Of a stretch of 64,000 nt of DNA, positions 1 through 57,414 are shown piece after piece. Origin of the DNA: Paenarthrobacter sp. (GTDB lineage Bacteria; Actinomycetota; Actinomycetes; Actinomycetales; Micrococcaceae). Within the stretch, counting starts at the first letter, position 1, and every line of letters starts with the position of its first letter. The notes below the pieces were generated by a model, which was given only the letters and a program-made list of their open reading frames with translations, was not told where the DNA came from and did no database searches. Location: positions 288,743-352,742 of the forward strand of contig JAPSHX010000001.1 in assembly GCA_031179305.1 (NCBI GenBank), in the 5' to 3' direction. The position numbers and the translations under genes are program-made.

Positions 1-218
1 TTTGTGGGGCCTGGTGTGCAGGGTATGGGGCACGCTATGGGTGCTGAGTGGGCCTCGCAACGCAGGGGGGTAATTTGTGGGGCCTGGTGTGCAGGGTATG
101 GGGCACGCTATGGGTGCTGAGTGGGCCTCGCAACGCAGGAGGGTAACTTGTGGGGCCTGGTGTGCAGGGTATGGGGCACGCTGAGGGCGCTGAGTGGGCC
201 TCGCAACGCAGGGGGTAT
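1..218. repeat. Three tandem copies of a 73-bp repeat upstream of purH
   Basis: Units start at about 1, 74 and 147, with an exact 73-bp period. Units 1 and 2 are almost identical; unit 3 differs in a few bases and has one G fewer at its end. Each unit carries TGTGGGGCC near its left end and CGCAACGCAGGGG near its right end, which can be read as diverged inverted arms. The array may extend left of the window. A related single element lies at 27488-27563. No protein-coding signal was seen. Bases 219-320 hold the purH leader. Confidence 0.9.
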
Positions 219-8288: not shown

Positions 8289-8365
8289 GCCTGCTCCATC
8301 CACCGTCGGCCCTCTCGAAAACGCGACCCCCCGAAGAGGGCCACCTCCCATTCTGCCCCTCCTCA

Positions 8366-8431
8366 CCCAACTAGGTAGCAGATCAGGTCGTTTTCAGCGC
8401 TGAGAACGACCTGAAGTGCTACCTAGTTGGG
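8366..8431. repeat. 66-bp palindromic dispersed repeat, copy A
   Basis: Two 33-base arms pair at 30 of 33 positions around the centre TTCAGC/GCTGAG. It begins and ends with CCCAACT/AGTTGGG. It lies 12 bases after the phnE stop and before the flavin oxidase gene. The pair GGTAGCA/TGCTACC replaces GGTCGCA/TGCGACC of other copies, a compensatory change. It would form a long hairpin as RNA and may terminate the phnDCE transcript. Confidence 0.92.
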
Positions 8432-8443
8432 TCGGCAGGCACG

Positions 8444-15519: not shown

Positions 15520-16515
15520 TCAACCGGCTAGCTGCAACTGCTCCAAGTCGGCCATAGCGCCTGTGGATTCAAAGGTCAGCCTGACGTTGACGTTGTAGGC
15601 ACCAGGCCTTCCGAGATCGGGGATCCAAATCTCCGCGACACCGGCATCGTGGGGCGTGGTTGCCACGATCCTGTACGCGAGGTTTTCGGCTTTCCAACTC
15701 TCGGATACATCGAGGCCATCCAAGGACCAGGTCAGGAGCATGGGGACGTGGGCCAGTCCCTCAAGATCGATCCTCACGGCGACGGTCCACCCCAAGGGGT
15801 CTTTGCCCTGGCTGCTTTCGATGACCATGACTTCCTCCAGCGCCTCCACCAGTTCTGCTGCCACTTGCGCAGGGGGAAGCAGTTCGCCATCCTCGTTGAC
15901 AGTTACGGGCGGAAGGAGGGCCGGGAGGATTACAAGGGCTCCGGAAACGTAGCCTTCCAACTCTTTCTGGTCCGAAACGGCGGAGCGATATTCCGGCGGC
16001 GGAGGAGTCGCGATCTTGTTCGCGATGGTGGGGTTGCCGGAGGAAGTGCTTTGTGTGGGAGATGTTGCCACAGGCGTGGCCGGAGGCGTCGAAGGCGTGG
16101 GTGTGATGGTTGCCGTGGACGTCGTCGGGGGAGGGGTGGTGGGTGGGATCGTGGTGGGTTCCGGCGTTGTCGTCCCGTTGGACGCCGTCAGATTTACGGA
16201 TGCCGCGAGATTTACGGAAGACGGTTCAAGGGCAGCCGCAGCCGGTTGAAGGGCCAAGTCCTTGCCCAAGTCTGCCGGCGCGAAGGCCGCGAGGGATGTT
16301 TGCTTGACGAGGGTGAGCGATTCGATGGTGGCAACGTCCTCGGTATTCGGGGGAATGATCCGGTCCCATAGGGCGATGATGCTGATAAGCGCTGCCGCCA
16401 CGGCCCCCGCGGTGATGATCAGTGTCTTGGCACGCCGAGACAACGGTGTCTTCTTTTTCTTTTTCCTTTTCTTTTTTGTTCGCGTCGATTGATCCGTGTT
16501 CTTAGGTGTAGCCAT
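15520..16515 (-). CDS. Membrane-anchored protein with polylysine N-terminus and Pro/Thr-rich stalk, unknown function
   Basis: A 331-residue protein I do not recognise. The N-terminus has a nearly pure Lys/Arg run (TKKKRKKKKK, about 13-22), then one transmembrane segment (about 32-50), giving a single-pass topology with the C-terminus outside. Residues about 105-165 are a Pro/Thr/Ser-rich stalk that could be glycosylated. The C-terminal 140 residues look folded, with beta-strand-like ends (PGAYNVNVRLTFEST). The coding DNA for the lysine run is a long pyrimidine tract on the plus strand (about 16449-16478). It is divergent from the HlyD-like gene across a 201-base gap, in which I see only promoter-type sequence. 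Confidence 0.75.
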   Translation of the reverse strand: MATPKNTDQSTRTKKKRKKKKKTPLSRRAKTLIITAGAVAAALISIIALWDRIIPPNTEDVATIESLTLVKQTSLAAFAPADLGKDLALQPAAAALEPSSVNLAASVNLTASNGTTTPEPTTIPPTTPPPTTSTATITPTPSTPPATPVATSPTQSTSSGNPTIANKIATPPPPEYRSAVSDQKELEGYVSGALVILPALLPPVTVNEDGELLPPAQVAAELVEALEEVMVIESSQGKDPLGWTVAVRIDLEGLAHVPMLLTWSLDGLDVSESWKAENLAYRIVATTPHDAGVAEIWIPDLGRPGAYNVNVRLTFESTGAMADLEQLQLAG

Positions 16516-27487: not shown

Positions 27488-27563
27488 TACCCCCTGTGGG
27501 GCCCACTCTGCGCTCTATGAACCCATGTTTGCCTGCAGAGCGGGCCCCGCAACGCAGGGGTGT
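27488..27563. repeat. Diverged copy of the purH-upstream repeat
   Basis: This single interrupted palindrome has left arm CCCCTGTGGGGCCCACTCT and a right arm that reads, in reverse complement, CCCCTGCGTTGCGGGGCCC and onward. It shares CGCAACGCAGGGG and TGTGGGGCC with the 73-bp tandem units at the left end of the window. It lies between the ROK gene and the amidase gene. The rest of 27391-27694 holds the ROK promoter and the amidase leader; no gene is seen. Confidence 0.7.
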
Positions 27564-35215: not shown

Positions 35216-35230
35216 GGAGCCAGCTTAGTT

Positions 35231-35296
35231 CCCAACTGGGTCGCAGATCAGGTCGTTCTCAGCGCTGGGAACGACCTGATCTGCGACCTACTTGGG
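35231..35296. repeat. 66-bp palindromic dispersed repeat, copy B
   Basis: The inner 42 or so bases around AGCGCT are nearly perfectly paired (GATCAGGTCGTTCTCAGC with GCTGGGAACGACCTGATC). The outer ends are CCCAACTGGGT and ACCTACTTGGG. The right arm contains the TAG stop codon of the methyltransferase (35288-35290). It lies 15 bases upstream of the carbonic-anhydrase-like gene. Confidence 0.93.
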
Positions 35297-35953
35297 TGCG
35301 GGGGTGCGGAGGACCAGGAACTGGTAGTGCTGGGACCAGTTTCCTGCGCCCGGGCCGGACTCCACGCCCAGGCCCTCCGGCCACGTCCGGAAGTGCTCCA
35401 CCGCGCCGTGCTCACCAAAAATCCGCTGGACTGTATCGTCGCTGCGGCGGCTAAAGAATCGCCGCGGTTCCTCAAGGTCTTCCGGGTTCAGTACTTCGTC
35501 GTCCTCACCTGACCAGAGCCCGACGGCGATTGGCGCACCAGGTGCGGTGACCCGCACAAGTTCGCGGACGACGTCGTGAATCCCGCTGTTGGGGACGTGC
35601 AGAAGAGTGCTCATGGTCCAGGCAGCTGAAAAGACGGCATCCGGAAACGGCAGGCTGCGGCCGCTGGCAACAGTGGCCTCAAGCCTGGCCGAGCGCGCCA
35701 AATGAACGCTCTCCGAGGACAGATCCACGCCGGTGTAGTGCAAGCCGGCGCGGACAAACTCCACGCCCTCAACCCCAGTGCCGCAACCCAGCTCAAACAA
35801 CGAAAGACGATGTTCGGACTTCAGCAGCCGGATGAACCACTCCCGGCATTCAACCCGATGCGGCGTCAGCGCGCGGGTGTTCCTCGCCGGTGCTTGGCGG
35901 TCGTAGAAGACAGCCAGGTCAGCCTCATGGTCGGCGTCAGGGATGCCCCGCAT
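35288..35953 (-). CDS. Class I SAM-dependent methyltransferase
   Basis: A 221-residue protein with SAM-binding motif I LFELGCGTGVEGVEF near 52-66, an acidic post-I loop YTGVDLS and motif IV FSAAWTMSTLLHVP. The substrate is unknown; small-molecule methyltransferases of the Methyltransf_11/25 type look like this. The last two codons and the stop lie inside a 66-bp palindromic repeat, so the present C-terminus (APAPK-like end) was probably defined by insertion of the element. The purU gene ends 21 bases upstream. Confidence 0.87.
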   Translation of the reverse strand: MRGIPDADHEADLAVFYDRQAPARNTRALTPHRVECREWFIRLLKSEHRLSLFELGCGTGVEGVEFVRAGLHYTGVDLSSESVHLARSARLEATVASGRSLPFPDAVFSAAWTMSTLLHVPNSGIHDVVRELVRVTAPGAPIAVGLWSGEDDEVLNPEDLEEPRRFFSRRSDDTVQRIFGEHGAVEHFRTWPEGLGVESGPGAGNWSQHYQFLVLRTPAPK

Positions 35954-39383: not shown

Positions 39384-39422
39384 GTTTCCGCGAACCACAG
39401 CAAGGCCCATTACGGGGCTAAG

Positions 39423-39458
39423 CTGCCGAAGATGCCGTTCGCACGGCATCTTCGGCAG
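39423..39458. terminator. Hairpin after folD
   Basis: A perfect 15-bp stem CTGCCGAAGATGCCG (39423-39437) with its complement at 39444-39458 and a TTCGCA loop, 39 bases after the folD stop. Probable terminator without a T run. Confidence 0.75.
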
Positions 39459-39512
39459 GGAACCCTCGAAATGGCCTCGCATAAGTCGGTGGGCGCTACT
39501 AGTCTGCTGAGG

Positions 39513-46674: not shown

Positions 46675-46727
46675 CAGGCGAGGTCCTGTTGCGATAATAT
46701 CCCAAGGCGGCCATCGGCAAGTAAGTA

Positions 46728-46793
46728 CCCATGTAGGTCGCAGATCAGGCCGTTATGAGTGCTCAGAACGACCTGATCTGTTACTTACTTGGG
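46728..46793. repeat. 66-bp palindromic dispersed repeat, copy C
   Basis: The most diverged copy: the core CAGATCAGGCCGTT...GAACGACCTGATCTG is kept, while the centre reads ATGAGTGCTCAG and the outer arms TAGGTCG and TTACTTA do not fully pair. It lies between the convergent small membrane gene and the alpha/beta hydrolase, 10 bases from the latter's stop. Confidence 0.88.
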
Positions 46794-46803
46794 TGGGGGC
46801 GGG

Positions 46804-47637: not shown

Positions 47638-47687
47638 AACGACGACGGCGCCGCTCACCATCAGTGGTGAGCGGCGCCGTCGTCGTT
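47638..47687. terminator. Perfect 23-bp hairpin after the sdh operon
   Basis: Arms 47638-47660 and 47665-47687 are perfectly complementary over 23 bp with a TCAG loop. It lies 25 bases after the sdhB stop and upstream of the hydrolase gene. It should end the sdhCDAB transcript. Confidence 0.88.
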
Positions 47688-52751: not shown

Positions 52752-53957
52752 GTGCGCAATTACACGACTGAAACCGAGCCCGCTCCCGTTGTGAGTCCTT
52801 GGGTTGATGAACTGCTTCCCGGACTCATCGACTTCCGGCGTGACCTCCATGCGCACCCCGAGCTTTCCTTCAAGGAATTCCGCACCACCGACAAACTGGT
52901 GGAGCGGCTTGAAGCAGCCGGATTGAAGCCGCGGCGCCTGGAGGAGACCGGACTGACGGTGGACGTGGGCGAGGGCCCCATTGCTACGGCCCTTCGCGGG
53001 GACATCGACGCACTGCCGATCATTGAGGAAACCGGCCTGCCGTTCGCGTCGAAGAACCATGGCGTTACCCACGCTTGCGGCCACGACGTCCACACCACTG
53101 CGATGCTCGGCATTGCCTTGACGCTGCAACGGATGCACAAGAACAATCCGCTGGGCGGGACGGTCCGGATCATCTTCCAGCCTGCCGAGGAGACCATGCC
53201 CGGCGGTGCACTGTCCTGCATTGAGCAGGGAGTGCTTGAAGGTGTGCCGCGTATCCTGGCGCTGCACTGCGATCCCCGGATCAACGTGGGCCAGATCGGC
53301 ACCCGCATCGGTGCCATCACCTCCGCCTCGGACACCATTAAAATTGAGCTCTCCGGCCGAGGCGGACACACGTCGCGGCCGCACCTGACCGAGGACCTTG
53401 TCTTCGCGTTGGCGCAAATAGCGGTCAACGTGCCGGCTGTCCTTTCCCGCCGGGTGGATGTCCGCAGCGGCGTATCGGTGGTGTGGGGCCAGATTTCAGC
53501 GGGCTCCGCACCGAACGCCATCCCGGGCACCGGCTACATGGCGGGCACCATGCGTTGCCTCGATCGCGATGCCTGGCACAGTGCGGGGGAGCTGCTGGAC
53601 GACGTCGTGAGGCAGGTCGCCGCGCCCTACGGCGTGGACGTCCACTTGGAGCACACCCGTGGCGTACCGCCTGTAGTGAACTCTGAGCACGAAACGGCCC
53701 TCATCGAAGCCTCAGCCCGCGCGGAACTTGGCGAAAATGCGGTGGTCCTCACGCCGCAGTCCATGGGTGGCGAGGACTTTGCCTGGTTCTTGGCCGACCT
53801 GCCAGGGGCCATGATGCGGCTGGGCACGCACACCCCCGGCGGCGAAGAATACGACCTCCACCGTGGCGACTTCATCGTTGACGAGCGTGCTCTCGGCTAC
53901 GCCATCCGCGTCCTGACAGCAGCTGCCCTGCGCACCATCCGCGACCTCGAACCGTAA
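52752..53957 (+). CDS. M20-family amidohydrolase
   Basis: A 401-residue zinc-dependent hydrolase of the M20D group (hippurate/IAA-amino-acid hydrolase, N-acyl amino acid amidohydrolase). Metal ligands are seen in THACGHDVHT (about 111-120), PAEETMPGGAL and LHCDPRI; the dimerisation domain starts at about 200 with SGRGGHTSRPH, and MGGEDFAWFL is near the end. The natural substrate is unknown. GTG 52752 lies six bases after TAGAGT, another leaderless-type start. Its stop codon is followed immediately by a 66-bp palindrome. Confidence 0.92.
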   Translation: MRNYTTETEPAPVVSPWVDELLPGLIDFRRDLHAHPELSFKEFRTTDKLVERLEAAGLKPRRLEETGLTVDVGEGPIATALRGDIDALPIIEETGLPFASKNHGVTHACGHDVHTTAMLGIALTLQRMHKNNPLGGTVRIIFQPAEETMPGGALSCIEQGVLEGVPRILALHCDPRINVGQIGTRIGAITSASDTIKIELSGRGGHTSRPHLTEDLVFALAQIAVNVPAVLSRRVDVRSGVSVVWGQISAGSAPNAIPGTGYMAGTMRCLDRDAWHSAGELLDDVVRQVAAPYGVDVHLEHTRGVPPVVNSEHETALIEASARAELGENAVVLTPQSMGGEDFAWFLADLPGAMMRLGTHTPGGEEYDLHRGDFIVDERALGYAIRVLTAAALRTIRDLEP

Positions 53958-54023
53958 CCCAGCTGAGTCGCAGTTCAGGTCGTTCTCAGCGCTGAGAACG
54001 ACCTGAACTGCGACCCAGTTGGG
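53958..54023. repeat. 66-bp palindromic dispersed repeat, copy D
   Basis: The best palindrome of the four: CAGTTCAGGTCGTTCTCAGC pairs perfectly with its mirror arm around AGCGCT, and the ends are CCCAGCTGAGT and ACCCAGTTGGG. The GTTCAG/CTGAAC pair replaces GATCAG/CTGATC of copy B, a second compensatory change. It directly abuts the amidohydrolase stop codon and lies upstream of ohrR. Confidence 0.95.
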
Positions 54024-54045
54024 TAAGCACGGCATACTTCGGTTG

Positions 54046-57359: not shown

Positions 57360-57371
57360 ATCAATTCCTGG

Positions 57372-57414
57372 ACGCGCCGCCAGTACCGAGCCCCGGTACT
57401 GGCGGCGCGTTTTT
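57372..57414 (+). terminator. Intrinsic terminator between the lipoprotein and ATPase genes
   Basis: A perfect 16-bp stem ACGCGCCGCCAGTACC/GGTACTGGCGGCGCGT (57372-57387 with 57395-57410), 7-base loop and T run. Partial read-through would lower expression of the ATPase and permeases relative to the binding protein. Confidence 0.95.

Follow-up and report, generated by a model that had tools for sequence, protein, structure and literature searches.

We analysed a 64,000-nucleotide stretch of the Paenarthrobacter sp. contig JAPSHX010000001.1 (positions 288,743 to 352,742; hereafter the window), which begins within a tandem array of palindromes upstream of purH; a gene for a predicted nuclease lies directly to the left of this array. 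Tandem Repeats Finder revealed a period of 73 bp at window positions 1-215, with 2.9 copies, 95% matches and a score of 395, in agreement with the tandem repeat named in the original prediction. Each 73-bp unit was composed of a 61-bp imperfect palindrome and a 12-bp linker, and the consensus of the palindrome, designated family A, contained GTTGYGRGGCCYGCTYTGCG, a 21-bp middle and CGCAGAGYGGGCCYCRCAAC. The repeat finder and the family model placed three plus-strand palindromes at positions 1-61, 74-134 and 147-207; the purH leader starts right after the third, and purH itself, located by open reading frame (ORF) calling and named from the first reading and its recognisable sequence, occupies 321-1991 on the plus strand. 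Extension to the left of the window, as had been proposed, revealed at least three further units at 288443, 288516 and, truncated, ending at 288642 of the contig (C21), followed by a 100-N scaffold gap within the array (288643-288742), after which the three window copies come. Because the array runs into this gap, its exact copy number is not fixed by the assembly, a draft of 82.8% completeness, and is at least six.

The nuclease gene, identified from its ORF and profile matches, spans approximately 287504-288430 of the same contig, just outside the window, and contains about 309 codons. The N-terminal part of the protein matched the AbiEi models of PADLOC (best E-values of 8.8e-6 to 7.3e-13 for five homologues), and the C-terminal part matched, at scores under the Pfam cut-offs, models of Vsr-like PD-(D/E)XK restriction endonucleases (REases) and DUF559. 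A profile of 30 nuclease homologues gave a weak PDB match to 3hrl (E 0.004), and E202, D235, H252, D262 and R265, which resemble catalytic residues, were invariant or nearly so in two alignments (A2 and A4). In some nuclease genes, stops mapped upstream of the likely start codon. No AbiEii toxin was noticed beside the nuclease among neighbours read from ORFs (a kinase-type gene and purH), without a dedicated AbiEii search. A single-sequence AlphaFold model of the nuclease had a predicted local distance difference test score of 32 and was discarded.

The nuclease and its palindromes were found together at purH in other genomes as well. All ten purH-locus orthologues examined, including those of the distant genome G013 and the named strain cf158, had family-A palindromes on both sides of the gene, with 1-3 copies upstream and 1, 1, 1, 2, 3, 4, 5, 7, 9 and at least 6 copies downstream. 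Two close relatives, G023 and G033, carried neither the nuclease gene nor any family-A copies at this locus. The suggestion that the copy number at purH varies was therefore borne out, with 0 to 9 downstream copies between Paenarthrobacter-type species, while we found no evidence for the suggested role of the array in separating purH from upstream genes. Mycobacterial interspersed repetitive units (MIRUs) likewise form intergenic tandem arrays, with units of comparable length and a variable copy number, and we know of no palindromic nature or nuclease tie for them.

Family A was also found far from purH. A single intergenic copy lies at window positions 27493-27553, between a minus-strand and a plus-strand gene, and was matched by the family-A covariance model with 54.1 bits (E 4.5e-13). 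It is the same 61-bp element as the array units, with a stronger stem, so that the relationship between the two sites seen in the original prediction holds; the shared 13-mer core by itself was unconvincing (5 matches at up to 2 mismatches, compared with an expectation of 4.5), whereas the whole-element model was convincing. The model, built from 50 copies, gave 139 two-strand matches at approximately 70 distinct places in this genome, contrary to the condition under which the original prediction would have been refuted, a lack of other genomic copies. The family is thus dispersed and expanded in tandem, as predicted; such expansion occurred at more than a single locus, with about ten family-A arrays present in this genome. 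Across the clusters surveyed below, tandem periods ranged from 72 to 79 bp and were mostly 73-75 bp. Among 60 genus relatives, the repeat-rich genomes were those closest in purH identity, together with G013, and a scan of named genomes yielded at least 108 stretches with family A, all of which, among the matches listed, belonged to Paenarthrobacter or Arthrobacter. Repeats were present in 8 of the 8 genomes with the family-A nuclease and in 3 of the 53 genomes without it.

We surveyed 173 family-A clusters from this genome, the named genomes and the relatives, some of which are orthologous and therefore partly redundant; genes were called by a script trained in this analysis rather than taken from a reference annotation. 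The element was exactly 61 bp long in 262 of 271 copies, and only one of the 173 clusters lay within a predicted gene. The median distance to a stop codon was 11 bp (30 bp or less in 151 of 204 cases), compared with 80 bp to a start codon. Single copies showed a preference for one base at their outer edges (C|GTTG...CAAC|G), and 99 of 116 had no abutting direct repeat of any kind. At the gathering score, Rfam gave no family-A match, a tRNA being its sole match, and covariation in family A within this genome was not above that of shuffles. The polarity of the G.T wobble pairs was the same as that of transcription in 20 cases and opposite in 14; an RNA function deduced from it was rejected, since the polarity is intrinsic and unlinked to transcription. 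A clustered regularly interspaced short palindromic repeats (CRISPR) array, considered for the 73-bp period, was rejected because whole units repeat and the palindrome covers most of the unit, and integron attC sites were rejected by inspection, as the ends do not fit RYYYAAC/GTTRRRY.

These properties bear on two mobile-element explanations. Miniature inverted-repeat transposable elements (MITEs) moved by a DDE transposase would likewise be short, with inverted ends and dozens of copies; we consider this origin extremely improbable, as most single copies lack the terminal direct repeats of a target-site duplication, the bracketed gene encodes a nuclease rather than a DDE transposase, and a search that was not exhaustive revealed no autonomous insertion sequence sharing these ends. 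Extragenic palindromes at gene 3' ends that flank a cognate gene also recall repetitive extragenic palindromes (REPs) mobilised by REP-associated tyrosine transposases (RAYTs). However, the Y1/HUH transposase of this type (PF01797) was found in only 1 of 61 genomes, G032, which has no family-A model match, and in none of the repeat-bearing genomes tested, and the elements are 60-61 bp long and start with GTTG or other sequence rather than carrying a GTAG or CGTC tag, which leaves RAYT mobilisation a negligible probability.

The window contained a second palindrome family, designated family E, whose cognate nuclease gene lies 5 kb to the left of the window (C21 282985-283917), is itself flanked by family-E palindromes and encodes a protein with an AbiEi match of E 7e-13. 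Four copies were located in the window: one at 8365-8432; one at 35230-35297, within which lies the stop codon of the minus-strand gene at its right; one at 46727-46794, between convergent genes; and one at 53957-54024, abutting the stop codon of the plus-strand gene at its left. This genome holds approximately 63 family-E copies. Of 31 copies that were read, many start directly 3' of a stop codon or contain the stop of the neighbouring gene inside an arm (for example, proteins ending ...PK or ...PN), the stop-codon distances of -1 and -10 being dependent on the chosen element boundary, and 21 lay between convergent genes, compared with 8 of 59 adjacent gene pairs in the window. In relatives, two-strand matches ranged from 126 (G060, nuclease present) down to 0 (G005, nuclease absent); G033 and G048 had about 60 matches without the nuclease, and G041 had only 10 with it. 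The family-E copy number thus tracks the presence of the nuclease only loosely.

The positions of both families raise the possibility that the palindromes are host 3'-end elements, either bidirectional terminators or mRNA stabilisers placed after stops, and that the bracketing of the nuclease is incidental. Consistent with this are the short distance of family A from stop codons, the preference of family E for convergent gaps with some stops inside the palindrome, the unrelated perfect hairpins that other species have at an orthologous site, and the strong folding of the palindromes as single strands. Clusters of terminator hairpins also consist of adjacent hairpins downstream of stop codons, but they form no sequence family and have no tie to a gene (PMC8355165). 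We nevertheless regard this explanation as unlikely: it accounts neither for the palindromes upstream of the nuclease in divergent gaps nor for the match between palindrome family and nuclease clade and their co-occurrence, and the wobble polarity of family A is independent of transcription. A role as bidirectional 3'-end hairpins fits the positions and may hold alongside a partnership with the nuclease.

Many homologues of the nuclease in soil actinobacteria, both within the genus and elsewhere in the order, had flanking palindromes of their own, ~60 bp long and of unrelated sequence; those beside the paralogues of the genus were designated families B (ATCGATTGCTCCGTA...), C, D, E and F. With hairpins counted at a score of at least 13, 29 of 37 nuclease loci in the genus and 19 of 25 in the order had a hairpin on either flank, compared with 0 of 37 and 0 of 24 control stretches, largely coding, at a distance of 900-1150 bp. 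Relative to ordinary window genes, the contrast was weaker yet still clear: hairpins lay on both sides at 16 of the 37 loci and at 3 of 56 genes, and on either side at 29 of the 37 loci and at 20 of 56 genes. Common 8-mers were shared by both flanks at 24 of 36 nuclease loci and at 2 of 56 window genes (p=3e-11), this statistic being applied only against ordinary gene flanks. Protein identity correlated with palindrome similarity across 44 loci (Mantel r=0.77, 0/5000), which indicated that nucleases and palindromes diverge together. Family-B palindromes retained their pairing, and 14 of 26 pairs showed compensatory changes (0/500 shuffles). Strong family-B palindromes (best E < 1e-14) were present in 31 of 31 genomes with a family-B nuclease (at least 300 bits, or split into fragments in two genomes) and in 10 of 30 genomes without one (p=5e-9), with thresholds chosen after the tables were seen.

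If the repeats had arisen passively, through slippage and duplication acting on a palindrome formed by chance, no protein would be involved. The purH array, with units 95% alike, does resemble a simple tandem duplication, but the fixed length of 61 bp, the covariation that keeps family-B pairing and the linkage to nuclease clades make such an origin very improbable. The palindromes could instead be operators for autoregulation of the nuclease gene by the AbiEi-like domain of its product, with the dispersed copies as a regulon. Upstream copies are located ~40-120 bp ahead of where the protein match begins, and AbiEi of Streptococcus and Mycobacterium tuberculosis is described as autoregulating its own operon via inverted repeats (PMC7319586). 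The dispersed copies, however, are mostly 3' of stop codons rather than at promoters, and the downstream copies and arrays equal the upstream ones in regularity; we therefore consider operators improbable.

Several observations weigh against a functional partnership between nuclease and palindrome. The REase assignment rests on matches below the curated cut-offs (PF18741, E about 1e-5 and 18-29 bits against 38.2; DUF559, 13-18 bits against 20.6). Two paralogues (C63:54270 and C20:52091) had no clear palindromes, and the shared-8-mer measure failed to discriminate nuclease flanks from distant coding controls. The co-occurrence p-values are inflated by species relatedness, as related genomes are not independent. 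Ten genomes had strong family-B palindromes without a family-B nuclease, and G023, G033 and G005 had many family-A copies without the cognate nuclease; the palindromes thus persist in its absence. In the one syntenic region checked for insertions, the sites were old, the sole missing copy left a remnant, and there were no clean empty sites, so that no insertion event was observed.

Overall, the palindromes flank the nuclease genes, diverge and co-occur with them, and are dispersed at gene 3' ends. From this association we infer that the repeat is probably the palindrome half of a nuclease/palindrome module, a partnership similar to a REPtron but with a non-RAYT enzyme. By analogy with AbiE, the AbiEi-like domain would recognise and bind its cognate palindrome, and the REase domain might cut at or near it. 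Cleavage could then promote repair or copying that spreads the palindrome to further sites, in a manner analogous to RAYT/REP systems or homing. Copies just after stop codons would be tolerated or kept, possibly serving there as bidirectional 3'-end hairpins, and the purH array probably arose afterwards, when the 73-bp unit was duplicated locally beside the nuclease gene. It is conceivable, at somewhat less than even chances, that these belong to a new class of systems, selfish or symbiotic and widely distributed in the order, in which an AbiEi-like Vsr-type nuclease recognises its own family of ~60-bp palindromes and multiplies it, targeting the 3' ends of genes without the involvement of any known transposase.

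Many bacteria carry REP-like palindromes, and to our knowledge no enzyme other than RAYT has been credited with their movement. If the partnership is real, Actinomycetota would provide a second enzyme partner, unrelated to the first; this would mean that palindrome/enzyme partnerships arose more than once, and a poorly annotated nuclease family would gain a function. A direct test is possible because each nuclease has its own predicted substrate. CGTC-type REPs have been reported without a dedicated transposase (PMC3733652). The REP/RAYT systems, including REPtrons and REPINs (PMC3733652, PMC3116915), resemble the present one in several respects: their extragenic palindromes are scattered and found chiefly 3' of stop codons, each cognate gene lies between palindromes of its own family, a genome contains several such families, and relic copies survive where the gene is missing. 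In contrast, the enzyme here is AbiEi-like with a PD-(D/E)XK domain rather than a Y1/HUH transposase, the palindromes are ~60 bp long instead of 20-40 bp and lack the GTAG or CGTC tag, and the system is found in Actinomycetota. The AbiE type IV toxin-antitoxin systems (PMC7319586, PMC3985639) share the AbiEi match, and AbiEi binds inverted repeats; they differ in that the protein here has a nuclease domain and the palindromes are dispersed genome-wide. Vsr-like REases, the MTES_1575 REase and DUF559 (PF18741, PF04480; PMC3710099) share conserved C-terminal acidic and histidine residues and the weak 3hrl match, but the matches here fall short of the Pfam cut-offs, and MTES_1575, the founding protein, is of a multi-domain HEPN/helicase type (PMC3710099). 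We found no description of a nuclease/palindrome partnership in the open-licence literature searched, an absence that is weak evidence of novelty.

Some minor features were also observed. Comparison of the L022 site (15879-16387) with L136 and L140 revealed that, after the same gene, G023 and G033 have unrelated perfect hairpins replacing the family-A array; the outer ends of the G033 hairpin resemble family E. Window positions 39407-39474 contain a further long palindrome that carries GGCAGGGAACCC in an arm; it resembles one close to the nuclease paralogue L041 (3206-3265), and the two may represent a further family. The long intergenic hairpins at 47638-47687 and 57369-57413, the second ending in TTTT, are candidates for ordinary terminators. 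We also observed a short 10-bp tandem repeat (CGGCACAAAG) at 2009-2046, immediately 3' of the purH stop codon.
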